Shown piece by piece: positions 8,393 through 23,816 of a stretch of 24,472 nucleotides of DNA. The stretch is from a virus. Every line of letters starts with the position of its first letter. The first letter of the stretch is position 1. The position numbers were made by a program, and so were the translations under genes. The DNA is taken from the IMG/VR virus record IMGVR_UViG_3300006735_000242, positions 1 to 24,472 of that record; one strand, given 5' to 3'. The notes below the pieces were generated by a model that worked only from the letters and a program-made list of their open reading frames with translations, had not been told where the DNA came from and made no database searches.

Positions 8393-11026
8393 ATGGTAAG
8401 CGGAAAGAGTACACACACCACCAGACTCACCGATGGTGACTTCATCATGTCGCCCTCACTCACCAACCTGTTTGAAGGAGCGCACGGCAATGGAATACTA
8501 CTACTCGAGGATGGTGCTACCAACGGTGGCAACAGGAACACACCAGCATCGTTATCGGGCGCAGTTTCGGCCAACGGTACTAATGGACTCAACATCAAGG
8601 CTGGTTATGCTGTCATAGACGGGATGATTGTCGACTTCGGTAATTACACAGTAGGTGTGAATGCCAACACGTACTCACTTACCTTAGAGCAGAGTACAAT
8701 CGAAGGCACTAATGTAGCACTCTCAGACTCAGGCGATTCAGTCCTATTAGTGGTATACGTCTGCACTAACGGAAAGGACGATAGTGCCACAGACGCTCAT
8801 AACATCCAAGTCGAGATGGGAACGAAAGTCACCAGTGGATTCCCCGTCACACCAGAGACATTCCTCTCAGACCCCAGCGGTCTCAACTCTGGATTGACTC
8901 TCAATTCTAAGCAGAGCACTGTCCTCGCAGTCGTCAAGTGTGTACATAACGCATCAGGTGGTAACCTCAATCTACAAGTCGATACGATATACGACATGAG
9001 AACCTACATTCGACATTCCCCCATATACTTCACACCGATGACAAAAGACAGCATCGGCACTTACACTAACAGAATCACATCGCATGTTGAACTCGATGGT
9101 ATGCATGGTGCTGGTGATGAGGGCGGTGCACTCAGCAAGACGGACAACCCTCTAGGTGCTCTCTGGATGAGCCACAATGAGAACGACGAATCCGTGTTCT
9201 ATCTCAGCGGCAAGCAATCCAGCAGCAGGAACACATGGAGGCTCGGTCCTGACAACCTAGTGACGGCAACCACCACGCAGACGTTCAAGGTCGACACTGG
9301 TAATTACTTCATCATGACACCGGGAGGCGCTGGTGTAGAACTCAATCCAGTAGGGACTTTCCCCAAGAGCCACGTAATCACCGTACTGAACCTAAGTGGT
9401 TCTAACACGGTTCTATTCAATGAATCTCCAGATGGTAATTCCGGAACTGCCAAGTTTACACTAGCGACTAACAAGAGCGCCATCTTTGCCTATGATGGTA
9501 ACAACACTTGGAGACAGGCATTCGTTTCTGGTAACGTATCAGGTGCAGCGAGTGGTGTCGTTGGTAGGATGCAGATAGCAGACGGTGCTGGAAATCACAC
9601 ATCGGATGCAGATATCACGTTCGACAAGGGCGAGGTCACAGGTGTCCTAATCAATAACGGCGGTGGATACAGCGCTGCTACTACTGCTGCCATGACGGTA
9701 GATGGCGTGAACGCAACCACGAAGATATCCGTCGGTGATGTGCTACGAAGGACGAACAACGCAGGTGATGTGATAGGCACTGTGACAGCAGTCACATCCA
9801 CTAGCATCACCATCGGTGCTGGGACTCTCGTCACCGTGAACGACGATGACCCAATCTACAGAGAGGGGAAGATAACAATCGATGGTGTGGCTAATATCAG
9901 CAAGCCTATCTTCGGCCCTACAGGCATCGAGTTCACACCGATTGGCAAAAACCCGTACAAGACCACAGCGGCTAACTCGCTCTGGAGGAACAGCGCTGAC
10001 AGCAACAGGCTCTACTCAGGTAGCACCAAGATACTGCTCGATGGGGACAGCGTCGGTGCGACTACTATTCTAGGTCTCACCGATACACCAGCCAACTTCA
10101 CTAGCGCGGCGAACAAGTTCCTGCAAGTCAACAGCACACCTGATGCAATCATATTCGACACGATAGCCGAGGGAGACCTACCAACGGCACTCCCGAGTGT
10201 TGCCTCGATAGGACAGTCCGGCGTCGGTGCTGCTGGAGTCCTCACTGTCAACAAGGACCTCACGGTCACAGGTGACCTAATCGTCAGTGGCACTACGACG
10301 ACCATCAACGTAGACACCGTGAATGTCGAGGACATCAACCTGACACTCGGTAGCGGAGTCGGCGCGGATGCCGATGTAACTGGTGGTGGCATCACTCTTG
10401 CCAGTACCGACAATGCTCATACAATACTGTACGAGTCCAGTGACGACTCTTGGAGATTCAGCGACCACGTCCTACCAACCACGGACACTGCGAAGGACTT
10501 AGGCACATCGTCCGTGAAATGGGGCACTATACACGTTGGTGCGGTCAGCACTGGTACATTTGCAGGCACTGGTAATCTCAGCATACCTGCGAACGGCAGC
10601 GTCCTCAAGGTCGATAGCACAGGCAAGGTCGGTGTCAACCAAGCGTCACCTGTGGCTTCGTTCCAGTACGAGAGCGTCGGCCATGGGTATGTAACAGGCG
10701 CGAGCACGACAGGCAGCGACACGGCTGAGGCACACACGCTATTCGCAAAGACAGCATTCGGCTCGGCTGAGGCTCTCATTCTTTGCAACAACACCACAGA
10801 CGCCACATTCGAGACTCACAAGGCAGTCATCAGCACCGTGCCCACGAGTAGCGGGGCTAGTGCGGCAGTGGTGTCCGTGTACGGGCAGGTGAGAACAGAT
10901 GCCAGTAAGGCATTCTGCACCTTCGCAGCACAGGAGTCTGGCGGCAACATACAACTTCTAATCACGCCCGGTGTCGGTAGTACGGCATATACGTTTAAGG
11001 TGGCATGGAAGGGCATAGCGGTATGA
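8393..11026 (+). CDS. Tail fibre/adhesin protein 1 (877 residues)
   Basis: The N-terminal part (about residues 1-230) reads like a tail attachment domain: an opening TRLTDGDFIMSPSLTNLFEG, then beta-strands with GYAVIDGMIVDFG. The middle is a series of short beta repeats. Around residues 616-672 (10241-10410) is the module LTVTGDLIVSGTTTTINVDT followed by VEDINLTLGSG and GGITLAST. This module is widespread in tail fibres of marine phages. A KVGVNQASPVASF element (about 743-755) is a diverged copy of the GIGTTSP-type repeat. The last 110 residues form a compact beta domain ending in FKVAWKGIAV, probably the trimer knob or receptor-binding head. There is no coiled coil and no S74 peptidase. It is transcribed with its neighbours. 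Fibre assignment is fairly firm; the receptor is unknown. Confidence 0.85.
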   Translation: MVSGKSTHTTRLTDGDFIMSPSLTNLFEGAHGNGILLLEDGATNGGNRNTPASLSGAVSANGTNGLNIKAGYAVIDGMIVDFGNYTVGVNANTYSLTLEQSTIEGTNVALSDSGDSVLLVVYVCTNGKDDSATDAHNIQVEMGTKVTSGFPVTPETFLSDPSGLNSGLTLNSKQSTVLAVVKCVHNASGGNLNLQVDTIYDMRTYIRHSPIYFTPMTKDSIGTYTNRITSHVELDGMHGAGDEGGALSKTDNPLGALWMSHNENDESVFYLSGKQSSSRNTWRLGPDNLVTATTTQTFKVDTGNYFIMTPGGAGVELNPVGTFPKSHVITVLNLSGSNTVLFNESPDGNSGTAKFTLATNKSAIFAYDGNNTWRQAFVSGNVSGAASGVVGRMQIADGAGNHTSDADITFDKGEVTGVLINNGGGYSAATTAAMTVDGVNATTKISVGDVLRRTNNAGDVIGTVTAVTSTSITIGAGTLVTVNDDDPIYREGKITIDGVANISKPIFGPTGIEFTPIGKNPYKTTAANSLWRNSADSNRLYSGSTKILLDGDSVGATTILGLTDTPANFTSAANKFLQVNSTPDAIIFDTIAEGDLPTALPSVASIGQSGVGAAGVLTVNKDLTVTGDLIVSGTTTTINVDTVNVEDINLTLGSGVGADADVTGGGITLASTDNAHTILYESSDDSWRFSDHVLPTTDTAKDLGTSSVKWGTIHVGAVSTGTFAGTGNLSIPANGSVLKVDSTGKVGVNQASPVASFQYESVGHGYVTGASTTGSDTAEAHTLFAKTAFGSAEALILCNNTTDATFETHKAVISTVPTSSGASAAVVSVYGQVRTDASKAFCTFAAQESGGNIQLLITPGVGSTAYTFKVAWKGIAV

Positions 11027-11027
11027 T

Positions 11028-11035
11028 GGAGGTGA
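11028..11035 (+). promoter_or_regulatory. Shine-Dalgarno site that fixes a GTG start
   Basis: The 8-base sequence GGAGGTGA sits five bases before GTG 11041. It is the strongest such site in the window and supports a GTG start where no ATG is nearby. Confidence 0.8.
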
Positions 11036-11040
11036 GTTGA

Positions 11041-12723
11041 GTGGCAGAGAAGGATTTCCGTGTACAGAAGGGACTCATAGTCGCTGATGGTGATGTAACT
11101 GTCCCATCCGCACATACCGTGTTCGCTGGTACTTTCAACACAGATGGTGACTCCTCCAATCCTAACTTTGGGCTTACGATGTCAGGCAAGACAATCACCG
11201 CTGATGGTCAGGATACCAACATAGATGTCGAGATTACTCCTAAAGGAACTGGTAGTCTATTAGCAACTCGCATCAATAACACCGTGATTGGGAACGTCAC
11301 ACCTGCTGCGGCTACGGTCACCGCCCTGACTGCCACAACCACATCCACTCTACGTGGTGCAATCACCACTGGGGACACTGCGGCGGATACCACCATCACG
11401 CAAGCGAACTCGGCAGTGGATTCCGATGGTCGCGCACTGACCATAACGGCAGGTTCACCACCGAGTGGTAATACTGCCGATACAGGCGCTGGTGGAAACC
11501 TAATTCTCGCTGCTGGTGCTGGTAAGGGAACAGAGGATGGTGGTAGCATACTGTTCAAAGTCGCGGATGGTGCTGGCACTTCTCAGAATCTCAACACACC
11601 GGCAACCGCCCTCACCATTGCGGATGACAAGTCGTTCACCTTCGGTGGGGCTATCAACTTCGACAGCCAAAACATGACCAACGTCGACATCGACAGCGGT
11701 ACGATAGACGGCACGACGATTGGTGCTGCTACACCCGACACCATAGCAGGGACATCCCTTACCATCGATAGCGTAGAGATAGACGGCAAGGTCATCACGA
11801 TGACCGGGGACACGAACGACACCGTGACAATGACTGCGGCAGCAGCAGGTGCATTCACCATCGCAACGACGGACCACGGTGCTGCCAATTACGGCGGGGA
11901 CATAACAGCGAATGCCGATGGAAACATCATTCTGAATACCCTCAATATAGGCAACTCTGGAAATGACGCTAAAATCGCCTTCCAGTACAACAGTAGTGAT
12001 AGAGTCGTAGTCAAGAGCGGTGCGGTAGCAAACACACCGGTCTTGGTCGTCACTGGAAACGTGGACATATCAGGCTCTCTCCAAGGTCCTAGCGGTGCTG
12101 CTGGTGTGACCAACATAGTGGCAGCAGGGTCAGTGACCGGTGTCACCGACCTCACAGCATCGGGGGAAGTGAGAAGCGGGCATGCCGACCTCATACAGAC
12201 AGACGGCATACTGGGCTTGGATGAGAACAAGTCAAGCATCGTCGAAATCAACGGCACTAACTTCTACACCAGCGAGACAATCTCCATCACTGTTGCATCA
12301 AACCAGATTGCAACCCCCGGTAATACGGGCTACACGACTGGAAACTATGGCGGACAGGGCGTCATCAAAGTCATGGTGCTGAATACGGATGGTGGTAGTA
12401 CAGAAGTCTATCAAGTGGCTGAGGCCCTAGCCGTCTTCTCCCACAAGGACGATGAGACCACACCTGTGATAAAACTCAGAACAGTGCAGAAGGTAATAGG
12501 CTATTTCAATGAGCAAGGACTTATCGAAAGCACGGTCACGTATGAGTCCGGTAATGTTGGAATAGGCCACTTCGAGTGGGTTAGACAGCCAGATGCCTAC
12601 GGCACTGGTGTTGATGGTATGGCTCTCATATGGGTGTTCACCAAACCAACGGCGATAGAAGCAGGCACAATGCAGATATCCTGCAACGTGAATGGAATGT
12701 CACTACAAGGGGCAGGTGGTTGA
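11041..12723 (+). CDS. Tail fibre/adhesin protein 2 (560 residues)
   Basis: It starts at GTG behind a perfect GGAGGTGA. The N-terminus MAEKDFRVQKGLIV is almost identical to that of the 1303-residue fibre (MGEKDFRVRKGLIV), so the two probably dock on the same partner. Residues about 60-330 are Thr/Ala/Gly/Asp-rich beta repeats, including TVTALTATTTSTL and DIDSGTIDGTTIG, typical of shaft regions. Residues about 345-355 (SLQGPSGAAGV) hold a short Gly-Pro stretch before the C-terminal domain. The last 180 residues are different in character, with normal globular composition (IKVMVLNTDGGSTEVYQVAE) and several aromatic residues, and are the likely receptor-binding tip. The tip has no recognised family. 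It follows fibre 1 after 14 bases, within the same operon. Confidence 0.83.
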   Translation: MAEKDFRVQKGLIVADGDVTVPSAHTVFAGTFNTDGDSSNPNFGLTMSGKTITADGQDTNIDVEITPKGTGSLLATRINNTVIGNVTPAAATVTALTATTTSTLRGAITTGDTAADTTITQANSAVDSDGRALTITAGSPPSGNTADTGAGGNLILAAGAGKGTEDGGSILFKVADGAGTSQNLNTPATALTIADDKSFTFGGAINFDSQNMTNVDIDSGTIDGTTIGAATPDTIAGTSLTIDSVEIDGKVITMTGDTNDTVTMTAAAAGAFTIATTDHGAANYGGDITANADGNIILNTLNIGNSGNDAKIAFQYNSSDRVVVKSGAVANTPVLVVTGNVDISGSLQGPSGAAGVTNIVAAGSVTGVTDLTASGEVRSGHADLIQTDGILGLDENKSSIVEINGTNFYTSETISITVASNQIATPGNTGYTTGNYGGQGVIKVMVLNTDGGSTEVYQVAEALAVFSHKDDETTPVIKLRTVQKVIGYFNEQGLIESTVTYESGNVGIGHFEWVRQPDAYGTGVDGMALIWVFTKPTAIEAGTMQISCNVNGMSLQGAGG

Positions 12724-12727
12724 TAGT

Positions 12728-14947
12728 ATGGCTGCACCGGATTTAGCATCGGCAAACAGCACATCGAAAGCGGCAGCATTCGAGAGAGTGCTGGTAGCGA
12801 AGACCAATGCCACTGACACCACGACCAGCGGTAATAGCAACAGCGCTGGAGATATGGGATTCCAAGTGAACAATGTTTCCAGATTCTCAGCAGGGGACTA
12901 CATCAGCGGAAATAACATCAGGAAGAATACGAGAGTCACCGCTACCGGTACGGTTCAGGGTGTCGGTAGTGCTACCTCTATTCACATCGATAGACCACTC
13001 TTAGGTGACATAGGTGCTTCTGCGACCGTCTCTATCTTCCAAGCAAGAGAGGCAGCCGCAGACGGCCCACCCGGCTTCGAGTTGAAGGCTGGGACTAACA
13101 TATCGATAGCGGCTTCGAGCCAGAATGCCGTGGGTGCTACTGTACTCGAGATAACCGCAAGCGGCGGTGCTCTCGATATAGACGGTCTGAGTGCTATCGG
13201 CGCTCTAGCGAATGGTGATACTTTCCCAGTCGATGACGGTGATAATGGTACTAACACGAAAGCCACCATGACTCAGTTGAAGACCTACATGGAGAGCAAT
13301 CTATCCTTCCCAGTCACCGCTGTCAGCGGTGGTGTCGATAACAGGATAGCGACATTCAGCAGTGCCACTGCATTGGACGGTGATGCTGACCTGACTTTCG
13401 ATGGTGACATATTCACTGTTGGTGATGGCTCGGGTAATAGCCAATTAAGGTTATTATCAAAGTTGACCAACGATGCTCCGTTCAAGATATCACACCAAGA
13501 CACTCATACCACCTTTGCCCATACAACAGAGATGATGGAGATATCAGGTGTTTATGATGATAATACCAACAACGGAACTACTCAGAATCTACTTGGAATA
13601 AGAGCAGCCTTAAACGTGAATGGAAACCACATAAATGGTACTAAGACCGGTACTGGCATACTCGTAGACGTTGATGGTACTACCATCGGTAATACCACTG
13701 GTTACGGTCTTGACGTGGATGTCGATGGGTTCGATACCAACTACGCTGCTGTGTTCAGAAGCGGTAGTGTGGGAATAGGAGCAGTGCCTGACACAGCCAC
13801 CCTGCTTGAAATCACAACACCAGACAGTGGTGGTGAAGCACTCTTCCTGACTTCGACTCATACACCGGGTGTTGGTAGCAACACTACTGGTCCAATATTA
13901 CGTTTCAATGCCAAGAGGGACGGTAGTGAGGTTGGTACAGTCAATGACGACTTGGGTGTGATACAATTCCACGGAATGTCTCATGCCAGCAACAATCATC
14001 TGTTCGGCCAAATTAAGACTAGGGCGACAGCAGTCGGCTCTGCTAGTGAGACTGGCTCTCTGCAATTCGCGGTATCCACCAGCGATACTGGTGCTCTGGA
14101 GACTGTGATGAGCATAAACGGCGGTGCGGCAGCAGTGTCATCCACAGTGGTGATAGCCGGTAATCTGCAAGTAGACGGTGCGACTACCACAGTCAACTCC
14201 ACCACCATAGAACTCGATGACAAGAACATACTACTCGCTAAAGGTATGGGTAACGACGCTGCCGTAACCGATGGTGGTATAACCCTAGTATCCACTCAAG
14301 GGAATAAGACGTTCGAATGGAAGGTTGGCAACGCTGCTTGGACATCGTCTGAGAACTTGGAGTTGGCATCCGGCAAGTCGCTCATCAGCGGCACTGCCGA
14401 CCTCAGTTCGACTGACTTATTGAAACTGGATAGCATTTCCAACGGTACAGTAGCAGTGGACAAGGCGGTAGTTCCGACGACGAACAAGGACATCGGTACG
14501 TTCGGCACTCTCACAGCAGCGAACTTGACCGCCAACACGCTAGTCACCACACCTGCGCTGTCCGTGGACTCCGTGGCGGTGTTGGATACCAGCAGCAGTT
14601 CCAGTCAGAGTTTCGATTGTGTAGCGGGCAGTGGTGCAGCCAAGAACCTAGCGACATACGCATTCGCCACATACAGAACTGCGAAGTTCATAGGTCAAAT
14701 AGTAAACAACAGCACCCATGAGACCGATTGCTTCGAAGTCCTAGTGACTTACGATGGTGATGCTGCGCCGAGTGGCAATGGCGACGTGCACATGACGACT
14801 TACGCCTACATCAGTTCGAACGACACCCCGATGGGCACTCTAGCCGCAGTCAAGAGTGGAAGTAATATAGCATTGCAGTTTACGAATACCGTCGCTGACT
14901 TCACCGGTTCATTCGCGGTGACAGCAACTCAACTAATCAAACAATGA
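12728..14947 (+). CDS. Tail fibre/adhesin protein 3 (739 residues)
   Basis: An upstream in-frame ATG at 12692 would overlap the previous gene by 32 bases. ATG 12728 (MAAPDLASANSTS) is better: it follows AGGTGG at a normal distance and lies just past the previous stop. The N-terminus differs from fibres 2 and 4, so it may dock elsewhere. Residues about 350-420 hold VGIGAVPDTATLLEI, a diverged member of the GIGTTSP repeat family, and a segment with GGEALFLTS. Residues about 475-525 (14149-14298) repeat the module of fibre 1: VIAGNLQVDGATTTVNSTT, then DDKNILLAKGMGNDAAVTDG. The C-terminal 120 residues (from about 620, YAFATYRTAKFIGQ) form a beta domain like those ending many marine phage fibres, ending in VTATQLIKQ. 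The fibre call rests on this module order and on the neighbours. Confidence 0.83.
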   Translation: MAAPDLASANSTSKAAAFERVLVAKTNATDTTTSGNSNSAGDMGFQVNNVSRFSAGDYISGNNIRKNTRVTATGTVQGVGSATSIHIDRPLLGDIGASATVSIFQAREAAADGPPGFELKAGTNISIAASSQNAVGATVLEITASGGALDIDGLSAIGALANGDTFPVDDGDNGTNTKATMTQLKTYMESNLSFPVTAVSGGVDNRIATFSSATALDGDADLTFDGDIFTVGDGSGNSQLRLLSKLTNDAPFKISHQDTHTTFAHTTEMMEISGVYDDNTNNGTTQNLLGIRAALNVNGNHINGTKTGTGILVDVDGTTIGNTTGYGLDVDVDGFDTNYAAVFRSGSVGIGAVPDTATLLEITTPDSGGEALFLTSTHTPGVGSNTTGPILRFNAKRDGSEVGTVNDDLGVIQFHGMSHASNNHLFGQIKTRATAVGSASETGSLQFAVSTSDTGALETVMSINGGAAAVSSTVVIAGNLQVDGATTTVNSTTIELDDKNILLAKGMGNDAAVTDGGITLVSTQGNKTFEWKVGNAAWTSSENLELASGKSLISGTADLSSTDLLKLDSISNGTVAVDKAVVPTTNKDIGTFGTLTAANLTANTLVTTPALSVDSVAVLDTSSSSSQSFDCVAGSGAAKNLATYAFATYRTAKFIGQIVNNSTHETDCFEVLVTYDGDAAPSGNGDVHMTTYAYISSNDTPMGTLAAVKSGSNIALQFTNTVADFTGSFAVTATQLIKQ

Positions 14948-14975
14948 TGGACAGTGAAATCATGGTGAAAGGAAT

Positions 14976-17900
14976 ATGGGAGAAAAAGATTTCAGAGTAA
15001 GGAAGGGGCTGATAGTAGACGGTACTGGAACATCCAGTATAGCGGGCAGCCTCGGAATAGGCACTACAAGTCCCGATGCCCTTCTTCATGTTTCAAGTGG
15101 AACATCGGGTGATGCCGGAATTATCATCGAGGCCGATACCGATAACAATGATGAGGCAGACTTACCGTTCTTGTGGATGAAGCAAGATGGAGATATTACT
15201 GCACACGCCTTCCAAGCAACAAGTAATAAATTGCAGATTATCAACAACATTAGTAGTAGTGGCGGAATACAATTCCTAACAGGAACTACTAACAATACCG
15301 GAACAACTAATCCGGCTACAAGTGCATCAGTTAGACTTCATATCGCATCAGCGGGTGATGTCGGAATAGGTACTACAAGTCCCGATTCATTGCTTCATGT
15401 TAGAGGCTCAGATGCTATCCTAACAGTTGAGGACACCTCGATAGGAGTTGAAGCACTTAGCAGCAGTATGGCTGGAATAGACTTGATTTCAGATGGTATG
15501 AACAATGGTTCTTCCAAATATGGAACTGCAATCAAGTTCCTATCTTCGGATGGGCAATTTACAACAGAGAATCCCAAGTTCTTAGCAGCAATTGTCCCAA
15601 GAGCAACAGAAACTTATTCCGCCGATACAGATGGTGGAATGGCGTTAGATTTCGCAGTAACAGACGATAACCCCGGAACATCCAACTTACCTTCTGTTGC
15701 CATGACGGTAGACCATACAGGTAATGTCGGAATAGGCACTACGAGTCCTGATGCAAAATTGGAGATACAGCAGACCGACGGTGCAGTTCACGGTTTGAAG
15801 GTGTATAGGAATGATTCAAGCACATCCACCCCATTGGTCTATCTCCATGATGACAGTCAATATAATGATAACCCTACTCTCCATGTAAGGAATGATAGGG
15901 TAGACCAATACAGATATGCGGCTGTCTTTGAAGGAATGGTCGGAATAGGCACTACTACACCTGACCAGCAACTACACGTCGAGGGCAGCATCCTAGCAGA
16001 TGCCTACAACTTCGCCACGACCACGCTCGCAAGCAACTACACCGATGGTGAGACATCATTGGTTCTGACTGATGCCAGCCAGTTCCCTCTCAAGGGTTCA
16101 GGTACAATCAATGGAGTTGCCTTCACTTGGACTAGCGTTAGCACCAACACGCTCACTGTCCCTGACTTGGATGCCTCTTACACAGCAGGTGTCACGGTCG
16201 TGGCTGATACAGGTCTGTTCTTCCGAGATGGGTTCGAGAACGTGGCACAGCCTAGCGTGACCATATACGACAAGGACGACAGCGGTGCATCGAGAGACGA
16301 CTTGTCGATAAACGCAAACGCAGGAATCAGATTCAGACTAGGGAACGAGTCGCAGATGCAACTCACCACTGACCAGTTGTCGTTGACGACAGGCAACCAA
16401 GCCTCTGCTGCGATATTCGGCTTCAGGGACAGGACAGACATGGGAATCAAGTCCAACGCAGCCTACTCCGTCGGAGTGCTTGCCCCTGACAACGTATTCA
16501 TCCAAACCGACTCGAACAACAATGGTAGTACCAACTACATCGATTTTGGTCATGGCTCTAACCTAGTCGGTAGCGCAACCTCAATGATGAGGATAGTTAT
16601 GGGTGGGGCAACAGGGCCGGGCAAGATAGGAATAGGCACAACAGACCCCGACCAATTGCTTCATGTCGTAGGTGATTCCAATGACGACACCGTTGCGCTC
16701 TTCTCAACCGCAGGGGGGACTGGTGGTAGCACTCAGGGAACGGTTCACATCGGTCTGAGCCATTTCAGTACCGATGCCAACCCATCAGTTAGGATAGGGG
16801 CGGAGGAAAACGGCGTAGGTAGTTACCAAGCCGCCATGACCTTCGGGACTAGAAGTGCGACCTCCGATGCCGCACCTACCGAGAGGATGAGGTTGACTCA
16901 TAATGGACAACTACTACTCACTAATGGTACATCAGCAGCAGTAGCATCTGGTAGCGTAGGTATAGTAGAAGATGGAGATACAGTAGAGATAAGAAATCAA
17001 CATGGTATCATCAACATAGGTTCGACAAATACATCTTACATGCACATTACAACCGATAGGTCAAGATTTTACTTTGATGAAAGTTTGGTAGTCAATGATG
17101 GTATGGTATCTTCATATGACGAAGATTTACAACTTAAAAGAGCGCAATCAGATGATGAGAAAATTGTTGTAGGAGATAACTCGATGACATTCACATCTGC
17201 CGGAAATGATGTCGTTACTGTCGATGGTACGAATACTAGAGTCGGAATAGGCACTACAAGTCCACAACAGACATTAGATGTTGATGGAAACCTTTTCTTA
17301 GGCAAGAGTGGTGAAAGCACCGCTCTTACAGGCTCTCCACAGATTTTCGTGCAAGGAGATACCGCAGTTGCTACGTTTAAGGCTGACAACGCATCATCGG
17401 GCGACCAAATAGCAGGTATTCGTGTATTTGGGGATAGTTATCGCTCTATCGGCATGGTTATAGGAGACTATGATAACAGCGATGGTTCAGTGACAGAAGA
17501 TTGGATATTCGGCAGACAATACGCATCGGGGAGCAAGGCGGGTATATTCGCCGCTCCTGAGAATGGGGGTGATGAGTATATCACTGTCAACTCGGATTCT
17601 CAGAAGGCTGTGAAGATTGCAGGTGACGATGACGACATCGACTTCATCATACACGGTTCTAGCGGAGAGTATTTCCGAGCAGAAGCATCAACAGGAAGAG
17701 TCGGAATAGGTACTACGAGTCCTTCAGTCCCATTGGAAGTTGACGGTACGATAAAGGCAGACAAACTCAATTTAGTTGATGGAACTAGTGCAATCACTAT
17801 ACAATCGTCCAACCCTCTGAGGGAGAAGAAGATTTACGCAACCACTAGCGGTGATGGCTCTCCATTCGATGAGATGGTATTCCACTCTGAGGGTAGCACA

Positions 17901-18887
17901 GGCGGTTGGTCGGGACAGCACACGTTCACAGTCAGCAAGAGCGAGGATGATGACCCCGATGTCTTCGCCCCCTACACCGCATTCCGAATAAGAGACAGCG
18001 GCAACGGTACTTCCTCCGAGGTCTTGGTATCGCACAAACTCGGAGTGGGTATCCTAGACCCCGTACCTATGCTACATATCTACGGGAACAACTCCACCAC
18101 CAATCAGACGACTTCCGGTGCTGCGAGCATCACCATAGAGCAAGATGGTGCAGGAGATGCTGCCCTCAACTTCCTATTGACAGCAACTAGAAGGTGGATT
18201 GCGGGTATAGACAACAGCAACTCTGACAAGTTCAAGATATCAACGGGCGGCACTGACTTACAGACTGGAACTAAGTTGACCGTAGACACTGGCGGCAACC
18301 TCACGATGGCAGGTAATGTCAATGGTGTGGATGGTAATTTCACCGGCACATTGAGTGTCTCAACCACTGCACAAATCAACGGAAGCCATTCATTCGTTAG
18401 AGCGACTGCGATAACGCAGAACGGTGATGCAATCGATGGGACTAACATCACAAAGTGTTTTGCAGCGGCAAATACGTACGCATTCAGCAACAGTTATGAC
18501 TTACTAGGAAATCTCGCATCGGGTGGAGAGGTGGAACTATTCAGATTCAACGTCACTAGCAATTCTTACAGGAAGTTCCAAGCGGGCAAGATGTATGTCA
18601 GAGTACAAGATGTACCATCTAACGGATTCTTCCAACAGACGGTGACCTTCGGTTATTCCGGTACTGACGTCCTCTCATCCACAACTGATAGGATAGACTC
18701 AACGATGGGAGGCAATAATGCGAACTGGACCGATGAGAAGGCTACGATAGTGGTAGAAAAAGTCAGTGACTACATCTGTGTCAAGTTCAAGAACGATACT
18801 GGTTCGCAAATCAATGCTGGTGCACCAAATGGGTGGCATACGAGTTTATCTTGTGAACTATTCGAGATGGATGCGATAGTATCGTGA
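14976..18887 (+). CDS. Large tail fibre/adhesin protein 4 (1303 residues) with repeated GIGTTSP modules
   Basis: The N-terminus MGEKDFRVRKGLIVDG matches fibre 2. The body contains eight copies of a GIGTTSPDxxLHV-type repeat, beginning near residues 27, 130, 252, 323, 552, 757, 910 and 1023 (the last degenerate, GVGILDPVPMLHI). Inserts of 71-229 residues lie between them. This repeat is common in long bacterial and viral fibres and adhesins, often ahead of an S74 chaperone, but I see no S74 domain here. The inserts differ in style: some are FN-like beta blocks, one has TTLASNYTDGETSLVLTD. They also differ in base composition (about 34% G+C at 16981-17160, against 52% at 16261-16320), which suggests mosaic assembly. 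The last 170 residues form a likely head domain ending in ELFEMDAIVS. It starts at ATG after GGTGA with seven bases between, and is the largest fibre in the array. Confidence 0.85.
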   Translation: MGEKDFRVRKGLIVDGTGTSSIAGSLGIGTTSPDALLHVSSGTSGDAGIIIEADTDNNDEADLPFLWMKQDGDITAHAFQATSNKLQIINNISSSGGIQFLTGTTNNTGTTNPATSASVRLHIASAGDVGIGTTSPDSLLHVRGSDAILTVEDTSIGVEALSSSMAGIDLISDGMNNGSSKYGTAIKFLSSDGQFTTENPKFLAAIVPRATETYSADTDGGMALDFAVTDDNPGTSNLPSVAMTVDHTGNVGIGTTSPDAKLEIQQTDGAVHGLKVYRNDSSTSTPLVYLHDDSQYNDNPTLHVRNDRVDQYRYAAVFEGMVGIGTTTPDQQLHVEGSILADAYNFATTTLASNYTDGETSLVLTDASQFPLKGSGTINGVAFTWTSVSTNTLTVPDLDASYTAGVTVVADTGLFFRDGFENVAQPSVTIYDKDDSGASRDDLSINANAGIRFRLGNESQMQLTTDQLSLTTGNQASAAIFGFRDRTDMGIKSNAAYSVGVLAPDNVFIQTDSNNNGSTNYIDFGHGSNLVGSATSMMRIVMGGATGPGKIGIGTTDPDQLLHVVGDSNDDTVALFSTAGGTGGSTQGTVHIGLSHFSTDANPSVRIGAEENGVGSYQAAMTFGTRSATSDAAPTERMRLTHNGQLLLTNGTSAAVASGSVGIVEDGDTVEIRNQHGIINIGSTNTSYMHITTDRSRFYFDESLVVNDGMVSSYDEDLQLKRAQSDDEKIVVGDNSMTFTSAGNDVVTVDGTNTRVGIGTTSPQQTLDVDGNLFLGKSGESTALTGSPQIFVQGDTAVATFKADNASSGDQIAGIRVFGDSYRSIGMVIGDYDNSDGSVTEDWIFGRQYASGSKAGIFAAPENGGDEYITVNSDSQKAVKIAGDDDDIDFIIHGSSGEYFRAEASTGRVGIGTTSPSVPLEVDGTIKADKLNLVDGTSAITIQSSNPLREKKIYATTSGDGSPFDEMVFHSEGSTGGWSGQHTFTVSKSEDDDPDVFAPYTAFRIRDSGNGTSSEVLVSHKLGVGILDPVPMLHIYGNNSTTNQTTSGAASITIEQDGAGDAALNFLLTATRRWIAGIDNSNSDKFKISTGGTDLQTGTKLTVDTGGNLTMAGNVNGVDGNFTGTLSVSTTAQINGSHSFVRATAITQNGDAIDGTNITKCFAAANTYAFSNSYDLLGNLASGGEVELFRFNVTSNSYRKFQAGKMYVRVQDVPSNGFFQQTVTFGYSGTDVLSSTTDRIDSTMGGNNANWTDEKATIVVEKVSDYICVKFKNDTGSQINAGAPNGWHTSLSCELFEMDAIVS
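15054..18079 (+). repeat. Eight dispersed in-frame DNA repeats encoding the GIGTTSP motif
   Basis: Each copy spans about 38 bases and begins GGAATAGGCACTACAAGTCC or a close variant. Copies start at 15054, 15363, 15729, 15942, 16629, 17244, 17703 and 18042 (the last degenerate). The distances are 309, 366, 213, 687, 615, 459 and 339 bases, all multiples of three. Copies at 15054 and 17244 share the first 20 bases exactly. Recombination between any two copies would keep the reading frame. Confidence 0.85.
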
Positions 18888-18888
18888 T

Positions 18889-18893
18889 GGAGG
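18889..18893 (+). promoter_or_regulatory. Shine-Dalgarno site of the C1q-like protein gene
   Basis: GGAGG sits eight bases before ATG 18902, in the short gap after the stop of the 1303-residue fibre. Confidence 0.65.
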
Positions 18894-18901
18894 AATGAAA
18901 G

Positions 18902-19879
18902 ATGCCAAGAAGAAGTACGGAAATAAAGATGATAAACGATGTGAGAGGCAGCATAACGACGAACAACTTCTCGATAATAGGAACGGCCAACGAGATAGAC
19001 GTCGCTACGAGTGCAGGTACGGGAAACAACCCCGGTCAGATTGAGATTGGCATAAGCAGCAACTTCAGCGGTGGTGGTGGTGGAGGTACTTCAGCAGGTA
19101 CAGTCGATGTGTTCTCAGCGGAGTGCAACAGCGGAGCAGGAAACACCAGCCCAACCATAGACATCAACCACCCCAGTAGCGGAATCCCCAGCACCACCTT
19201 CTTCAACATCCCCTTCAAGCATGAGAGGAAGAAGGACTCCATATACACTCACAGCACATCCACCAACCCGGAGGAGATAACCGTCACAGAGGCCGGTATA
19301 TACTTCGTCTTCTACACTGTGAGAACCAACAACACCGATGTCAATAGATTCATCGCAGAGGCATTCATCTATCACGATGATGGGAGCGGCTTCGCTCAGA
19401 GAGACTTCACTGGGGCTACTTCGTACTCAAGGGGAACGAGTTATGATACCGATATGGTCTTGACTTGTTCTACTATTCTTGAACTCGCTGCTAATGATAA
19501 AATCAAGGTTATGGCGAGAAGAAACGATGCAGACGATTTGAATGACGAGACCTATGTTCAGAAGGACGGCACTAGCATTCACATAGCGAGGATAGCGGCA
19601 GTTGGGAACAAGGCCAACATCATAGCAGCGACGGGGGCTACCACGCTCACGAACGCTCAGTCCGGCTCTGTGGTCTACGTCACAGGGAGCGGTGCTGTCA
19701 CACTGCCAGCGAACATAGAGAAGGGAGTGCAGTTCGTCGTCATCAACGCCACCGGGAGTTCACTGACACCCGATTTGAACAGCAATAGTGCAGTCATATC
19801 AGGACACGGTGGCATGAATGACCAAACATCTAGGACGTATGTCGCGGTATCGAATGACAATGTGGCTTTCATAGGGTGA
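18902..19879 (+). CDS. Tail adhesin with glycine linker and C1q/TNF-like domain
   Basis: A 325-residue protein in three parts. Residues 1-56 (IKMINDVRGSITT, then GTANEIDVATSAG and GQIEIGI) look like a fibre-attachment domain of a kind seen in marine phage tail proteins. A Gly6 linker (residues 57-62) follows. Residues about 67-232 have the pattern of a C1q/TNF-type jelly roll: a first strand FFNIPFKHE, then ITVTEAGIYFVFYTV in the middle, LELAANDKIKVMARR, and a final HIARI. This fold commonly forms trimers and binds ligands. Residues about 237-325 are a separate small beta domain (GSVVYVTGSGAVTLPANIEK) found as a tail-fibre end module. Catalytic residues are not expected. The stop overlaps or abuts the next gene, so the two may form one adhesive complex. 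The fold is assigned by pattern only. Confidence 0.8.
   Translation: MPRRSTEIKMINDVRGSITTNNFSIIGTANEIDVATSAGTGNNPGQIEIGISSNFSGGGGGGTSAGTVDVFSAECNSGAGNTSPTIDINHPSSGIPSTTFFNIPFKHERKKDSIYTHSTSTNPEEITVTEAGIYFVFYTVRTNNTDVNRFIAEAFIYHDDGSGFAQRDFTGATSYSRGTSYDTDMVLTCSTILELAANDKIKVMARRNDADDLNDETYVQKDGTSIHIARIAAVGNKANIIAATGATTLTNAQSGSVVYVTGSGAVTLPANIEKGVQFVVINATGSSLTPDLNSNSAVISGHGGMNDQTSRTYVAVSNDNVAFIG
19070..19087 (+). repeat. Glycine-linker triplet repeat in the C1q-like gene
   Basis: Four GGT triplets are followed by GGA GGT, encoding Gly6. The run separates the N-terminal attachment segment from the jelly-roll domain. Confidence 0.8.
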
Positions 19880-19884
19880 TTATC

Positions 19885-21021
19885 GTGCCGTTCATACCCG
19901 CCTTCTACGGAGTCTGCCAACAGGCGGATGATGGAGGCTCTGGTGGTGGTGGTGGTGGTGGTACACCCGGTCAGGTCACTGGACTCACCGTGACTAGCAC
20001 ATCAAGCAGCCAGTTGAGCCTTAGTTGGAACGCAGTCAGCGGTGCTACCACATACAAGGTGGAGAGGTCGACTAGTTCAGGAAGCGGTTTTACTCAAATT
20101 GTGAGCAACTTGACCACTTCATACAATAACACCGGCCTCAATCAAGGAACGCGGTACTACTATCGAGTCAGGGCATCGAACAGCAATGGCGACGGGGCTT
20201 ACTCTAGCGAGGCTAACAACTTTACTCGACCCGGACAGGTCACTGGTCTTTCAGCCACTGCTGCTTCCACGAATCAAATCAACCTGTCTTGGAACAACCC
20301 ATCGGGAACTGAGACTGGTTTCCAAGTCTATCGCTCAACATCCTCCAACATGTCAGGTCAGACCCTGCTAGCCACACCGACTGGCACGACATACTCAGCA
20401 ACAGGGCTAAGTGCGGGGACGCAATACTATTTCAGAATCAGAGCCACCAACTCAGGAGGAACTGGTGCATACTCGTCTATCGCCAACGCCACCACGCAGT
20501 CAGGAGGAAGTGCGCCCAGTGGGGTTAGCATCGCAACGACTTCAAGTGGTAACTACAATCATGCAGTCATCATAGACTGCCCTTCGGGGTCAGGAGTAAT
20601 AGCAACGAACAGCGGGTCTTCCTTTCAACTCTTCAGCGGAGACATCGAATTGATTTTTGGCGTTAATTATAACAATGCACTGCTCGCCAATAGCGGAGTC
20701 ATTCAGTTCAGAACCTTTGGATATATCAGAGCGACAGGAGCGACATCCTTCGCATGGTCCTTGGGTGGCACACAGGTAGTGCAAGATGTATTTAGTGCGG
20801 TAAGTAGTTGTCTTAAGGCTGGTACTGCTTCTACTGCACAGGATAGAACTAGCACAGATATGGGAATGACTGTCGACGTTACACACAACTCCGGTGGTAG
20901 AGGATATGCATTGCTTAGTCAATCGGGAGATGGAGTCAGGTGGTTAGTAGGCGGTACAGCAACTAACTCCAACGGCACTACTTCCGCTACACAAATAGAA
21001 GTGAAGGTGCTTGTACCATGA
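19885..21021 (+). CDS. Adhesin with two fibronectin type III domains
   Basis: A 378-residue protein. A short N-terminus (PFIPAFYGVCQQADD) leads into GGSGGGGGGG, then two fibronectin type III domains. The first spans about 28-114 (PGQVTGLTVTSTSSSQLSLS, with YYYRVRASNSNGDGAYSS near its end). The second spans about 116-204 (QINLSWNNPSGTETGFQVY, then YYFRIRATNSGGTGAYSS). Both keep the core Trp and the Tyr-rich F strand. The last 170 residues are an unrecognised beta domain, perhaps the ligand-binding head. GTG 19885 is chosen because GGTGA ends five bases before it, as for other genes here. A GTG at 19876 overlapping the previous stop (GTGA) is the alternative and adds three residues. FN3 domains on tailed-virus particles are thought to bind cell-surface glycans or proteins. 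Its stop overlaps the next start. Confidence 0.8.
   Translation: MPFIPAFYGVCQQADDGGSGGGGGGGTPGQVTGLTVTSTSSSQLSLSWNAVSGATTYKVERSTSSGSGFTQIVSNLTTSYNNTGLNQGTRYYYRVRASNSNGDGAYSSEANNFTRPGQVTGLSATAASTNQINLSWNNPSGTETGFQVYRSTSSNMSGQTLLATPTGTTYSATGLSAGTQYYFRIRATNSGGTGAYSSIANATTQSGGSAPSGVSIATTSSGNYNHAVIIDCPSGSGVIATNSGSSFQLFSGDIELIFGVNYNNALLANSGVIQFRTFGYIRATGATSFAWSLGGTQVVQDVFSAVSSCLKAGTASTAQDRTSTDMGMTVDVTHNSGGRGYALLSQSGDGVRWLVGGTATNSNGTTSATQIEVKVLVP
19942..19962 (+). repeat. Seven tandem GGT triplets encoding Gly7
   Basis: A perfect (GGT)7 tract lies just ahead of the first FN3 domain. Slippage would change linker length by whole residues without breaking the frame. Confidence 0.85.
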
Positions 21022-21572
21022 GATGGGAAGTGACGGGGATACCCGAAGGCGAGAGTGGGGATTACAAGGTCGAGCAGTGTACCACCACCACTGGTGAGCC
21101 TTCTTGGTTGAACTATGTGAACTATCGCAACATAGCAGAGGGTGACTACACTGTCTTGTACAGGAAGTTCGGTGAGTCTTGGCTCAATATAATGCAGGAC
21201 ACCGAGCAGGAGTACAGTGAGCATGACTGGCTTGTGGAGAGGATGTCGGGAGATGTGTTGCTGGGTGGATTAGGCATTGGTATGATACACATACCACTAC
21301 TTGAATCGGAGGATGTGACTAGCGTCACTATCGTAGAGAAGGAGCAGGACGTGATAGACTTGGTATGGGAGCATTGTGCGAAGGACGAGAGGTTCAACAT
21401 AGTGCATGCCGATATCAACACATGGACGCCCCCGGAGGGAAGTAGTTGGGACGTGGTTTGGCTGGATACATGGCTCACTCATGAGGAGAGGATAAATGAC
21501 TACTCATCGAGGATGAGGGAGAAGTTCGGCCCTTACTCCGATAACGTAGGCGGTTGGCAGTGGCCCGATTAG
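21018..21572 (+). CDS. Small class I SAM methyltransferase/spermidine synthase-fold protein
   Basis: A 184-residue protein whose ATG overlaps the TGA of the FN3 adhesin (ATGA). Residues about 78-152 match the Rossmann core of SAM-dependent methyltransferases and polyamine synthases. Motif I is DVLLGGLGIGM (79-89). The acidic end of strand 2 is VTIVEKEQDVIDLV (Glu107). Then come IVHADINTW (Asp132) and WDVVWLDTW (Asp150). The glycine loop and acidic residues are intact, so cofactor binding is plausible. The protein stops about 30 residues after the core, so the usual C-terminal strands and substrate domain are missing or minimal. The N-terminal 75 residues are unrecognised. As last gene of the fibre operon it could modify virion or host-surface molecules, but the substrate cannot be read from sequence. 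Confidence 0.75.
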   Translation: MRWEVTGIPEGESGDYKVEQCTTTTGEPSWLNYVNYRNIAEGDYTVLYRKFGESWLNIMQDTEQEYSEHDWLVERMSGDVLLGGLGIGMIHIPLLESEDVTSVTIVEKEQDVIDLVWEHCAKDERFNIVHADINTWTPPEGSSWDVVWLDTWLTHEERINDYSSRMREKFGPYSDNVGGWQWPD

Positions 21573-21780: not shown

Positions 21781-22074
21781 TCAATACCCCAACTCGAACT
21801 TACTTGGCTTCTTCATCTCACGAATCTGCTGTGCTGCGAATCTTATCTTCTGAGTGCTGTGTAGATTCCAGAATGAATCCTTGTCTACCTTGAACTCCTT
21901 TTCTATGAGTTGACATAATTCGTATCTTGAGGAGGTTTGAAGGTCTCTGTCTATCTTCAAACCGAGTACTTCTCTGACTTCCTCATCCGAGTACGAAACA
22001 CGTCTATCTAACCACACGTAGGCATGTCCCATTACTCTCATGAGTTTACGAGCGAACCAACGGAGAAGTACCAC
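21781..22074 (-). CDS. Unknown 97-residue protein
   Basis: I do not recognise this protein. It begins with a basic amphipathic segment (LLRWFARKLMRVMGHAY, about 3-19), followed by charged helices with SDEEVREVLGLKIDRDLQ at about 29-46 and LCQLIEKEFKVDKDSFW at about 53-69. It looks like a small soluble helical protein. The start is uncertain. GTG 22074 has a GGTG only some 13 bases upstream; ATG 22041 would give 86 residues and has no clear binding site. The frame is the same as that of the zinc-ribbon gene upstream, with only the TGA at 22102-22104 and 27 further bases between them. Its stop lies one base before the micro-ORF start, which supports a real gene. Confidence 0.6.
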   Translation of the reverse strand: MVLLRWFARKLMRVMGHAYVWLDRRVSYSDEEVREVLGLKIDRDLQTSSRYELCQLIEKEFKVDKDSFWNLHSTQKIRFAAQQIREMKKPSKFELGY

Positions 22075-22101: not shown

Positions 22102-22323
22102 TCAACTTTCTCTTCCGCTGACCATTCTAAGCAACAAGTTTCTCTTTTTCTTAAAGACTGAGTCCTGCCAGAAGTGACCGCATTTTTTACATTGCCAGAG
22201 TTGTATTCTGTTTTTGATTTGAGCAGCATCACCGTTATGATATCTCGCTGTCAGACGATGTGGAACATGAACGTGATTACAGTTCCTGCACTTTACTTCA
22301 AGACGCTTCATCAACCGACCCAT
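22102..22323 (-). CDS. Small zinc-ribbon protein
   Basis: A 73-residue basic protein with two CxxC knuckles, CRNC at about residues 12-15 and CKKC at 45-48, spaced as in a four-cysteine zinc ribbon. Aromatic residues around the second knuckle (QLWQCKKCGHFWQDS) are typical of ribbons that bind nucleic acid or protein partners. The C-terminus is Lys/Arg-rich. Two adjacent ATGs occur. The second (22323) is preferred because GAGGAG (22328-22333) lies four bases before it and only one base before the first (22326). The gene starts on the stop of the chaperonin gene (TGATG), so the two are probably co-translated. Many archaeal viruses carry such small ribbons as putative transcription regulators, but this one lacks a recognisable partner domain. 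Confidence 0.72.
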   Translation of the reverse strand: MGRLMKRLEVKCRNCNHVHVPHRLTARYHNGDAAQIKNRIQLWQCKKCGHFWQDSVFKKKRNLLLRMVSGRES

Positions 22324-23816
22324 CATGCTCCTCTCTTCGCTATCACATCATCAATTTTTAGGATTGCAGTTGTTACTTCAGTCGCACTTAGTATTGCTTG
22401 CCTGACTAGTGAACAAGGCTCTACAACACCTAGTTCATTCATTGAAACTATACCTTCGTTTTCCAAGTCTGGCCCTTTGTCCAATGAGCCTTCCTGTATG
22501 GCATGCCTCAGACTCAGTATACAATCCAATGGGTCTTGACCACCGTTCTCTGCTATTGTCGCTGGGATAATCTCCAGAGCCTCAGCAAACGCCTCTATCG
22601 CCATTTGCGCTCTCCCTTCAACAGTTGCTGCTTGGGAGCGTAGGTAGGAAGCCATGGATGCATAAGCACTACCACCGCCAGCGACCACACCATCTCCGTT
22701 CATCACAAGAGAGACCACACCTAACGCATCATCGAATCCGCGCTCTATCTCATCGAGTGTTGTAGTAGTAGCACCTCGTAGCACAAGTGTAGATTGGTCT
22801 GAGTCTATCATTCCCTGCACGAAGATGTAGTCCACATCATAGTGCCTCTCCTTGTGTATCTTGCCCTTTGCAGCGCATTCGACATCGGAGGGCATTTGTG
22901 CTATGGGTAATCCGAGACTCGATGATAGAGCCTTCATTGTGCTTTCTGGTAGTCTTCTTACGACTGCGATATCGTGCTTCTTCAGGTATGCACAGACATG
23001 GTCAGAGACACCGTCCCTGACAAATACCACACCACCTTCAGGGAGATGCTTTGTTAGGCTCTTTGCCTGCTCTAACATGTTCTCCCTATCAGAGGACTTG
23101 AATGCGCTGTATCCCTTCATATCCAATTGCACCTGAACATTCTGTTCCGTCTTCTCTGGCTCGAGGCCCATATTCACTAGGAGCATGTTAGATTCCAATG
23201 GTACTTCGTGTTCAATGACATAGTCCTTATTGACTATAGCACCGTTAAACAGATAGGAATCTCTGAGTGAGCCACCGGGTAGGCTGAGGACTCTTACTTT
23301 CTCTGCATCTCCGGCTTTCTTGACTGCTTGAACACACAACTCAGACACTGTCTCAGTCGCTGAATCTAGTGTCTTACCTGTGATTGCTGTTTTTGCTACA
23401 GCCTTCAGAGTATCATCCGAAGCATCTCTGGATAGAGTTTCAACCAGATAATCAGTAGCCATGTGTGCAGCCTCATTGTATCCTTTGCATACTAGATTGG
23501 GATGCAAGCCGCGATTCAACAGATTCTCACTGTTAGTCAGCAGTTGCCCCGCTAATACTACTGTGGATGTAGTGCCGTCATAACATAGGCTCTCTTGCGT
23601 ATGAGCACATTCGATTATCATCTTCGCACCGGGATGCGCTACATCTAATTCTCTCAGTATAGTAGCACCGTCGTTGGTCACGATTGCGTTACCACCGCCG
23701 TCTACCATCATCTTGTCCCTACCATTAGGGCCAAGTGTGCTCTTCACAGTATGGACTATCGTCTTCACTGCATTTATGTTCGTTCTTAATGCATTTTCAT
23801 TTTCTTTTTCACTCAT
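22323..23816 (-). CDS. Group II chaperonin (thermosome/HSP60-like), virus-encoded
   Basis: A 497-residue thermosome-type chaperonin, which in archaea folds proteins in an ATP-driven double-ring chamber with a built-in lid. The nucleotide site is intact: GPNGRDKMMVD (29-39), TNDGATIL (47-54), DGTTS (80-84), TGK (146-148) and GDGVVAGGGSA (374-384) with Asp375 in the place of the catalytic Asp. The apical domain (about 195-345) keeps a region where the lid helix lies and the LVLRGAT strand (344-350). The C-terminal ENGGQDPLD and ILKIDDVIAKRG are typical. It is shorter than cellular thermosomes (about 540-550), chiefly at both ends: there is almost no N-terminal tail and no Gly/Met-rich C-terminal tail. 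It starts one base after the exonuclease stop (TAATATG). It may form homo-rings or mix with host subunits. GroEL is excluded. Confidence 0.95.
   Translation of the reverse strand: MSEKENENALRTNINAVKTIVHTVKSTLGPNGRDKMMVDGGGNAIVTNDGATILRELDVAHPGAKMIIECAHTQESLCYDGTTSTVVLAGQLLTNSENLLNRGLHPNLVCKGYNEAAHMATDYLVETLSRDASDDTLKAVAKTAITGKTLDSATETVSELCVQAVKKAGDAEKVRVLSLPGGSLRDSYLFNGAIVNKDYVIEHEVPLESNMLLVNMGLEPEKTEQNVQVQLDMKGYSAFKSSDRENMLEQAKSLTKHLPEGGVVFVRDGVSDHVCAYLKKHDIAVVRRLPESTMKALSSSLGLPIAQMPSDVECAAKGKIHKERHYDVDYIFVQGMIDSDQSTLVLRGATTTTLDEIERGFDDALGVVSLVMNGDGVVAGGGSAYASMASYLRSQAATVEGRAQMAIEAFAEALEIIPATIAENGGQDPLDCILSLRHAIQEGSLDKGPDLENEGIVSMNELGVVEPCSLVRQAILSATEVTTAILKIDDVIAKRGA

Follow-up and report, generated by a model that had tools for sequence, protein, structure and literature searches.

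Tetart, Desplats and Krisch reportedly found in 1998 that the distal tail-fibre locus of T-even phages recombines between conserved motifs. The likeness to the locus analysed here is that short, repeated, conserved motifs are where exchange takes place as the T-even fibre specificity region evolves. Among the Ackermannviridae, phage CBA120 has several adjacent receptor-binding proteins, TSP1-4, and the array described below is similar in its several adjacent putative receptor-binding proteins and in an XD1-like domain in its base protein (PMC8825819). HFTV1 likewise is a tailed virus of archaea in which a hub bears the fibres, but that baseplate hub has three tail fibres made of one fibre protein (PMC12494034). 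The haloarchaeal tailed viruses of the Hafunaviridae have one glycine-rich adhesin with hypervariable segments (PMC8651126), in contrast to up to six genes and shuffled modules here. Viruses of marine Group II (MGII) archaea carry a group II chaperonin and a family B DNA polymerase, PolB (PMC5332604). Their hosts are uncultured and abundant, and the viruses are known from sequence only.

The window, the 24,472-nucleotide stretch of IMG/VR virus record IMGVR_UViG_3300006735_000242 that was analysed, probably comes from a tailed virus of MGII archaea related to the magroviruses, as judged from its genes. Its chaperonin is 93-94% identical to those of the related viruses G001-G004 and belongs to the archaeal type, which clade 1 in PMC5332604 also has. 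PolB is found in 12 of 12 related records and is absent from the window, which is a 24-kb fragment. The likeness to the MGII viruses and magroviruses extends to chaperonin, PolB and genome size class, going by the available portions of three reports (PMC5332604, PMC10160649, PMC12999244). The same portions describe structural and tail genes, and no fibre array or joint. No Rfam match or tRNA was found within the window.

The six adjacent genes F1-F6 are a conserved tail-tip module, on the evidence of gene order and sequence comparison. As the initial annotation had it, they are six consecutive plus-strand open reading frames at 8393-21021, two of them with lengths that depend on the start codon (Table 1), and their spacing of -32 to +28 bp is operon-like, in agreement with its proposal of one operon. 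The order gpA-gpB-F1-(F2-F3 or fused)-F4-(F5)-F6 is kept in about 40 related viral contigs, which rules out chance. This synteny and the match of the F1 model to baseplate and tailspike folds bear out the idea that several genes following the tail hub gene form an adhesion module. About half of the relatives have F2 and F3 fused into a single gene, among them some viruses with 96-99% identical hub genes. The array had been considered far more adhesin coding than a simple tailed virus needs, a view that is not supported in that form: the count is raised by the F2/F3 split and by F5, and some relatives have only three genes. No relatives of gpA, F1 or F5 were found in cultured phage records, so the comparison rests on IMG/VR contigs.

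Table 1. Features of the fibre array and its surroundings, in window coordinates
Feature	Coordinates	Strand	Remarks
gpA, probable tail/baseplate hub, 497 aa	6554..8047	+	weak match to PF13550 (Phage-tail_3), under the family cut-off; synteny anchor, upstream of F1 in related contigs
gpB, conserved small gene between hub and F1, 114 aa	8047..8391	+	61-94% identity to relatives
F1, putative conserved base fibre/connector, 877 aa	8393..11026	+	present in 21/21 loci compared
F1 parts, predicted from models			RBP-shoulder-like N-domain, XD1-like domain, shaft, beta-sandwich head
F2, putative fibre, 560 aa	11041..12723	+	MxEKDFRVxKGLxV N-terminus; terminal domain of its own
F3, putative fibre, 751 or 739 aa	12692..14947	+	head homologous to F1 head
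F4, putative modular fibre, 1303 aa	14976..18887	+	shaft modules separated by VGIGTTSP joints
F4 joint 1 (aa 26)	15051..15074	+	
F4 joint 2 (aa 129)	15360..15383	+	
F4 joint 3 (aa 251)	15726..15749	+	DNA consensus matched exactly
F4 joint 4 (aa 322)	15939..15962	+	
F4 joint 5 (aa 551)	16626..16649	+	
F4 joint 6 (aa 756)	17241..17264	+	
F4 joint 7 (aa 909)	17700..17723	+	
F4 joint 8 (aa 1022), degenerate	18039..18062	+	
F4 module common to virus L092, 91.6% DNA identity	17237..17725	+	bounded by joints 6 and 7
F5, 325 aa	18902..19879	+	C1q/TNF-like domain and terminal domain
F6, putative small accessory/tip protein, 381 aa (378 from alternative start)	19876..21021	+	two inserted FN3 domains
M, methyltransferase-like, downstream of array (context only)	21018..21572	+	phrog_15480, 1.4e-18
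Group II chaperonin, host-lineage marker (context)	22323..23816	-	PF00118, 6e-123

The predicted fold of F1 resembles baseplate and tailspike proteins. F1 was the fibre modelled; the whole protein is predicted poorly and its N-terminal 395 aa alone moderately well. The model matches T4 gp9, the N-terminal part of CBA120 TSP4, the phi812 baseplate and phage receptor-binding proteins, and its XD1-type domain appears similar to TSP4 and gp9 at Z 8-11. That domain, the several adjoining fibre genes and the N-terminal tag common to F2 and F4 are consistent with a branched receptor-binding complex like that of the Ackermannviridae, with F1 as the platform, F2-F5 docked on it and several receptors bound at once. 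Such a complex is possible but doubtful. The TSP4 structure paper regards XD1 as a probable spacer, the branch-making domains XD2 and XD3 were not detected by fold matching of the F1 models (whose confidence is low to moderate), and the fibres could attach to the hub directly. The array also differs from the TSP complex in being sequence-divergent. Branching is a matter of assembly and would not conflict with the recombination of modules proposed below. HFTV1 is a structural lead only, and not an established close relative: its hub-bound tail fibre has a weak fold match to the F1 N-domain (Z 6.2) in one model, is absent among the matches listed for the second, and has no sequence match to F1. 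The PDB yielded no usable match in sequence-profile searches that started from gpA, F1, the F6 head or the F4/F5 terminal domain.

The terminal domains are mostly specific to their slots. The heads had been thought to differ completely, but the C-terminal domains of F1 and F3 are homologous (hhalign probability 98.5, E 3e-15; blastp identity 26-30% over about 260 aa). Clustering of the C-termini of 93 fibre-slot proteins from 21 loci places 84 of them in four main slot-specific families, and free swapping of heads between slots was rejected on this basis. The pool of interchangeable heads that had been suggested is not supported in that form; terminal domains stay in their own slots and shaft modules are what exchanges. 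Comparison of related contigs for swapped heads does show tip changes at the F4/F5 slot, in some loci, while the other slots keep their terminal families. The terminal domain of F5 is found in relatives at the end of F4-slot proteins. The C1q/TNF jelly roll attributed to F5 has only weak Pfam matches (BclA_C 0.005 and TNF 0.11, both below cut-off), and the domain recurs in three other viruses at 42-47% identity. The pair of FN3 domains in F6 is confirmed (PF00041, 9e-25, two domains). Not every gene has an attachment segment, shaft and head, as had been stated: the F6-like proteins of relatives are about 190-210 aa long and consist of a single domain behind a short hydrophobic N-terminus, and F6 of this virus is such a short single-domain protein that has gained two FN3 domains. 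The N-termini are of several types, and within the six only F2 and F4 have the tag in common.

Variation in the array lies mainly in the shaft, above all in the F4 slot, where proteins range from 506 to 2211 aa. VGIGTTSP joins the successive modules that make up the F4 shaft. These modules recur, at 72-92% DNA identity and in differing orders, in viruses with a distantly related hub gene or none that could be detected; the comparison contigs are metagenomic, and assembly chimeras could explain some rearrangements, but not blocks of such identity. The best-matched module, with L092, contrasts with a gpA identity of about 36%, and other viruses share modules at 87-90% (G018), 78-88% (G019), 72% (G015) and 77-81% (G017, in which no gpA was detected). 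The last 100 or so residues of F4 are often kept in close pairs while the shaft is replaced. L078 and L085 are 99% identical in gpA and 97% in chaperonin, yet 36% in F4 and 41% in F6; G002 and G003 are 99% identical in both markers and 46% in F4, with the last 100 or so residues of F4 conserved.

The ends of the shared blocks fall at the joints. Of 43 sharp ends, 37 lie at joint motifs. Independent junction clusters are at joints in 19 of 24 cases, where a null with block ends placed uniformly gives 3.3 +/- 1.7 and at most 10 in 5000 trials, though local alignments are pulled toward conserved words and the enrichment could be somewhat inflated. In a second set, of blocks at least 93% identical, 22 of 45 clusters are at joints (null 3.0, maximum 9). 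Recombination ending at a conserved repeated fibre-gene motif is thus a feature held in common with T-even phages. Exchange of the distal adhesin tip, the other T-even feature looked for, was not found as such, with tip change confined to some F4/F5 slots. The present locus also differs from the T-even one in its motif, in belonging to viruses of archaea, in units that are mostly internal shaft modules with the tip often kept, and in a joint conserved at the codon level across distant viruses.

These observations suggest that the array is the tail-tip fibre module of an MGII-archaeal, magrovirus-like virus, and that it probably evolves by recombination at the F4 joints. F1 would be the conserved base fibre or connector beside the hub, F2, F3, F4 and here F5 would be further fibres with their own terminal domain for each slot, and F6, a small protein, may have an accessory or tip role. 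The proteins are presumably present on the virion as trimeric fibres that bind the host surface. Through homologous recombination at the joints of about 30 bp, distant viruses would trade modules, and modules would also be added or dropped; in this way the viruses would vary the length of the fibre and the surface it exposes but retain the anchors and often the tips. No virus-encoded RadA or RecT was found, which calls for an enzyme from the host or a viral one that went unrecognised; the crossovers would be made by the host's recombination machinery. Many F4-slot proteins lack VGIGTTSP and use another repeat instead, so the joint mechanism covers only part of the family.

A dedicated enzyme, such as a site-specific recombinase, invertase or nuclease, could instead shuffle modules at the joint in the manner of a shufflon or invertible fibre, and the short, sharply bounded DNA consensus in many copies speaks in favour of this. 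It is very improbable, although an enzyme of an unknown kind or from the host might act. Tyrosine and serine recombinases are absent from 11 related records, which may be incomplete, all joints in the window are direct repeats on one strand, and inverted cassettes were not seen; a shufflon or invertase was rejected on these grounds. Fibre tips are common targets of diversity-generating retroelements. The action of one on the tips here can practically be set aside and was rejected, because reverse transcriptase was found in 0 of 12 related records; the observed variation is also block replacement.

Ordinary divergence would offer another account, in which VGIGTTSP is a structural turn of the protein and the DNA has no special role; alignments would stretch to conserved words, and a shaft cut at any other point would unfold. 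The peptide is found widely among the fibres of marine bacteriophages (161 records) and its codons are free in S-TIM66 and S-TIM5, which points to a protein-level role for it. A literature search found no mention of GIGTTSP. Divergence is unlikely. Identity of the shared blocks is near-uniform up to the joint and 15-50% beyond it, and the contigs L171 and L192, 99.7-99.9% identical, differ by one recent 666-bp in-frame module indel at a joint. The joint is also conserved as DNA across distant viruses. Its consensus, GGTAATGTCGGAATAGGCACTACRAGTCCY, is about 30 bp long and encodes (G)NVGIGTTSP, with position-specific codons: GGA in 40/50, ATA in 47/50, GGC in 36/50, ACT in 41/50 and AGT in 33/41. 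Other conserved residues beside it are codon-free; the leucine at +11 is 96% conserved and has no clear codon preference. A codon-pair control gives 68% vs 19% and 64% vs 10%. Where the same peptide occurs in the bacterial phages checked, 0.39 of 4 joint codons are matched, versus 3.23 of 4 here. There is somewhat less than an even chance that the joint is kept as DNA because distant archaeal viruses use it in common as a recombination site to trade fibre modules, perhaps with help from a specific enzyme of virus or host. Its conservation could come from another selection on DNA or RNA instead of recombination.

Recombination at the joints, if correct, would give a testable route by which such viruses rebuild the parts that touch the host. 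The locus would supply candidate host-contact genes, with anchors and slot-specific tips as the fixed parts and shaft modules as the traded parts. The spread of lengths in one gene slot would be explained, and one DNA sequence would become open to testing as a recombination joint.

The joint DNA would also serve as a query for finding fibre genes among viral metagenomes. The 118 exact IMG/VR hits to the joint word that were examined all lie in long open reading frames, in the GIGTTSP frame. Cellular genomes (257 Gb) contain three exact joint 20-mers, about the number expected by chance on a rough estimate. All three sit in GIGTTSP frames.

The organization of the locus and the sequences of related viruses suggest that the fibre array is a conserved structure with variable shafts. 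Six open reading frames, F1 to F6, are consecutive on the same strand as initially annotated, and the spacing from one to the next ranges from -32 to +28 bp. More than 40 related contigs were collected by scans with the chaperonin, by gpA alignment, and by F1 alignment. The gene order in them is gpA-gpB-F1-F2-F3-F4-(F5)-F6-M, with the chaperonin on the opposite strand; gpA is a hub-like gene and M is methyltransferase-like. About half of the loci have a single fused gene of 540-1190 aa in place of F2 and F3. L085 and L090 have the fused gene and L078 the split pair, though L085 and L090 match L078 at gpA with 96-99% identity. One contig (G013) has just three long fibre genes. The closest relative of the window at gpA is G006 (89%), with a chaperonin identity of 62%, while the closest at the chaperonin are G001-G004 (93-94%), with gpA at 49-75%; for G002 and G003 the values are 49-50% at gpA and 94% at the chaperonin. 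Because the left and right flanks disagree in relatedness, the two sides of the array have been separated by recombination.

Features of the window
Feature	Position	Strand	Description
Giant ORF	3-6557		at least 2184 aa, open 5' end, upstream of gpA
gpA			497 aa, weak Phage-tail_3 match
gpB			114 aa, between gpA and F1
F1-F6	8393-21021	+	fibre candidate genes
F6	19876-21021	+	last gene of the array
M	21018-21572		methyltransferase-like, phrog_15480, directly after the array
Tandem duplication	21464-21518		26 bp, end of M
Tandem duplication	21944-21994		25 bp, region after M
Chaperonin		opposite to array	group II, PF00118, E 6e-123
Exo (our name)		opposite to array	beside the chaperonin

The ends of the fibre proteins are tied to gene position (slot), and the shafts vary. 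When 93 fibre-slot proteins from 21 loci were grouped on their last 130 residues, there were four main slot-tied families: F1 with F3 and the fused gene (42 proteins), the F4 slot with the window's F5 (16), F6 (15), and F2 (11). Thus, contrary to what had been proposed, the heads do not differ completely, since F1 and F3 have a common head. Grouping by N-terminus places F2, F4, and the fused gene together (41) and gives three further groups, F1, F3, and F6. Pairs of near-identical viruses share most of their flanking genes at 96-100% identity, compared with 36-55% for F4 and 41-79% for F6. Within these pairs the first ~400 aa of F1, and often the last ~100 aa of F4, have high identity, and the shafts have low identity. 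L158, whose gpA is 41.5% identical, has a similar F4 head (57%) and adjoining F5 N-terminus (78%), suggesting that the F4 tip and F5 travel as one block. In G002, G003, and similar genes (L016, L017), where VGIGTTSP is absent, the F4 slot is filled by another kind of shaft, with NTAIGxxAG-like repeats that resemble YadA heads by eye.

Two of the assigned domains fared differently. The C1q/TNF domain of F5 falls below Pfam cut-offs, but three other viruses carry it too, at 42-47% identity. The FN3 pair of F6 is certain; the two domains are 54% identical to one another and are missing from F6 of all relatives found. Judged by sequence F6 is not a fibre; its counterparts in relatives are single-domain proteins of 187-212 aa whose N-terminus is short and hydrophobic.

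Shaft modules of F4 are shared between distantly related viruses, and the breaks in identity lie at a repeated motif. F4 has eight VGIGTTSP-type motifs. A 489-bp segment between two of these motifs is 91.6% identical to L092, whose gpA is only ~36% identical. Other modules are common to G018 (87-90%), G019 (78-88%), G015 (72%), and G017 (77-81%), and their position and order vary; in G017 no gpA homologue could be detected, and its chaperonin is more distant. Sharp breaks (at least 70% identity inside, at most 50% outside) were scored as near a motif when within 15 nt of it in at least one gene. In F4-type genes of the module-sharing viruses 37 of 43 were near a motif (null 5.8). Merging shared breaks left 24 independent clusters, 19 of them at a motif (null 3.3 +/- 1.7, maximum 10 in 5000). 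In a second set, of blocks at least 93% identical, 22 of 45 clusters were at the joint (null 3.0, maximum 9); this set is joint-biased, being mostly contigs picked by exact joint DNA, and the null was drawn from the same contigs. L171 has a 666-bp in-frame module that L192 lacks, with both ends within the joint, and the two contigs are 99.9% and 99.7% identical on its two sides. Rearrangements in single contigs could possibly be assembly chimeras, but blocks of 72-92% identity cannot arise in this way.

Judged from its codons, the joint is conserved at the DNA level. A set of 50 non-redundant copies of the motif, taken from viruses chosen without regard to joint DNA, shows position-specific codons: GGA for the first Gly (40/50), ATA for Ile (47/50), GGC for the second Gly (36/50), ACT for Thr (41/50), and AGT for Ser (33/41). 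A nearly invariant Leu 11 residues past the motif start has a codon identity of 0.22 against a background of 0.17, so the signal is limited to ~30 bp. Controls on dipeptides from other parts of these genes, outside the motif, speak against codon-pair bias. In bacterial phages with the same peptide 0.39 of four codons match, compared with 3.23 of four, and all four match in 0 of 33. One of these phages, S-CRES2, has uniform codons of its own, which may reflect recent duplication inside one gene. An exact joint 20-mer occurs in 83 IMG/VR stretches, with at least 118 copies among the 80 listed, all encoding GIGTTSP in long ORFs, and three times in 257 Gb of cellular genomes.

Homologous recombination at the joint would account for part of the fibre diversity. 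The array genes most likely specify fibres of the tail tip whose anchors are conserved and whose ends are particular to each slot. Their shaft modules would most likely be exchanged, gained, and lost by homologous recombination at the shared joint, changing fibre length and surface. Identity over ~30 bp is within the range usable by general recombination. Searches of 11-12 relatives yielded neither a virus-encoded recombinase of four families (tyrosine, serine, RadA, RecT) nor a reverse transcriptase; in the case of the recombinases this makes the host system the default candidate for the crossovers. Many F4-slot proteins have a different repeat type in place of the motif, so the joint mechanism can account for no more than a part of the diversity. 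In T-even phages, fibre genes are known to recombine at conserved motifs. Fibre arrays and such recombination are known kinds, with precedents including the Ackermannviridae (PMC8825819, PMC11414711) and Hafunaviridae (PMC8651126). A full-text literature search for the peptide GIGTTSP found no paper. The details that appear to be new are the array in these archaeal viruses, the slot logic, and the use of a DNA-conserved joint by distant viruses.

Predicted structure suggests a probable role for F1 as base fibre or connector. Confidence is low to moderate for the two AlphaFold2 models of F1 (mean pLDDT 55 and 63). Residues 287-382 match the XD1-type domain of CBA120 TSP4, T4 gp9, and related proteins (Z 8-11), residues 32-205 match a phi812 baseplate protein (Z 8.5) and phage receptor-binding proteins, and residues 752-877 match C-terminal domains of tailspikes and gp9. 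XD1 is considered a probable spacer, with branches carried by XD2 and XD3 (PMC8825819). These matches and the probable spacer role point to a base fibre or connector; branching is possible.

The flanking genes suggest an archaeal host. The window is the whole 24,472-base record, itself only part of a larger viral genome, and runs from the end of the giant ORF through gpA, gpB, F1-F6, and M to the chaperonin and Exo. Among the tailed viruses that Nishimura et al. (PMC5332604) report for marine Group II archaea, one clade has an archaeal-type chaperonin and others a bacterial type. A family B DNA polymerase is encoded in all 12 of 12 relatives, and from the chaperonin and polymerase markers we infer that the hosts are marine Group II archaea. 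Over aligned parts the giant ORF has ~59-82% identity in relatives. M is present in some relatives and was not found in G002, G003, G004, and G006. Between F6 and the chaperonin, L072 encodes a 261-aa protein starting MMIMNILSVFDGMSCGRIAL (19426-20211, minus strand), which by eye resembles a DNA cytosine methyltransferase.
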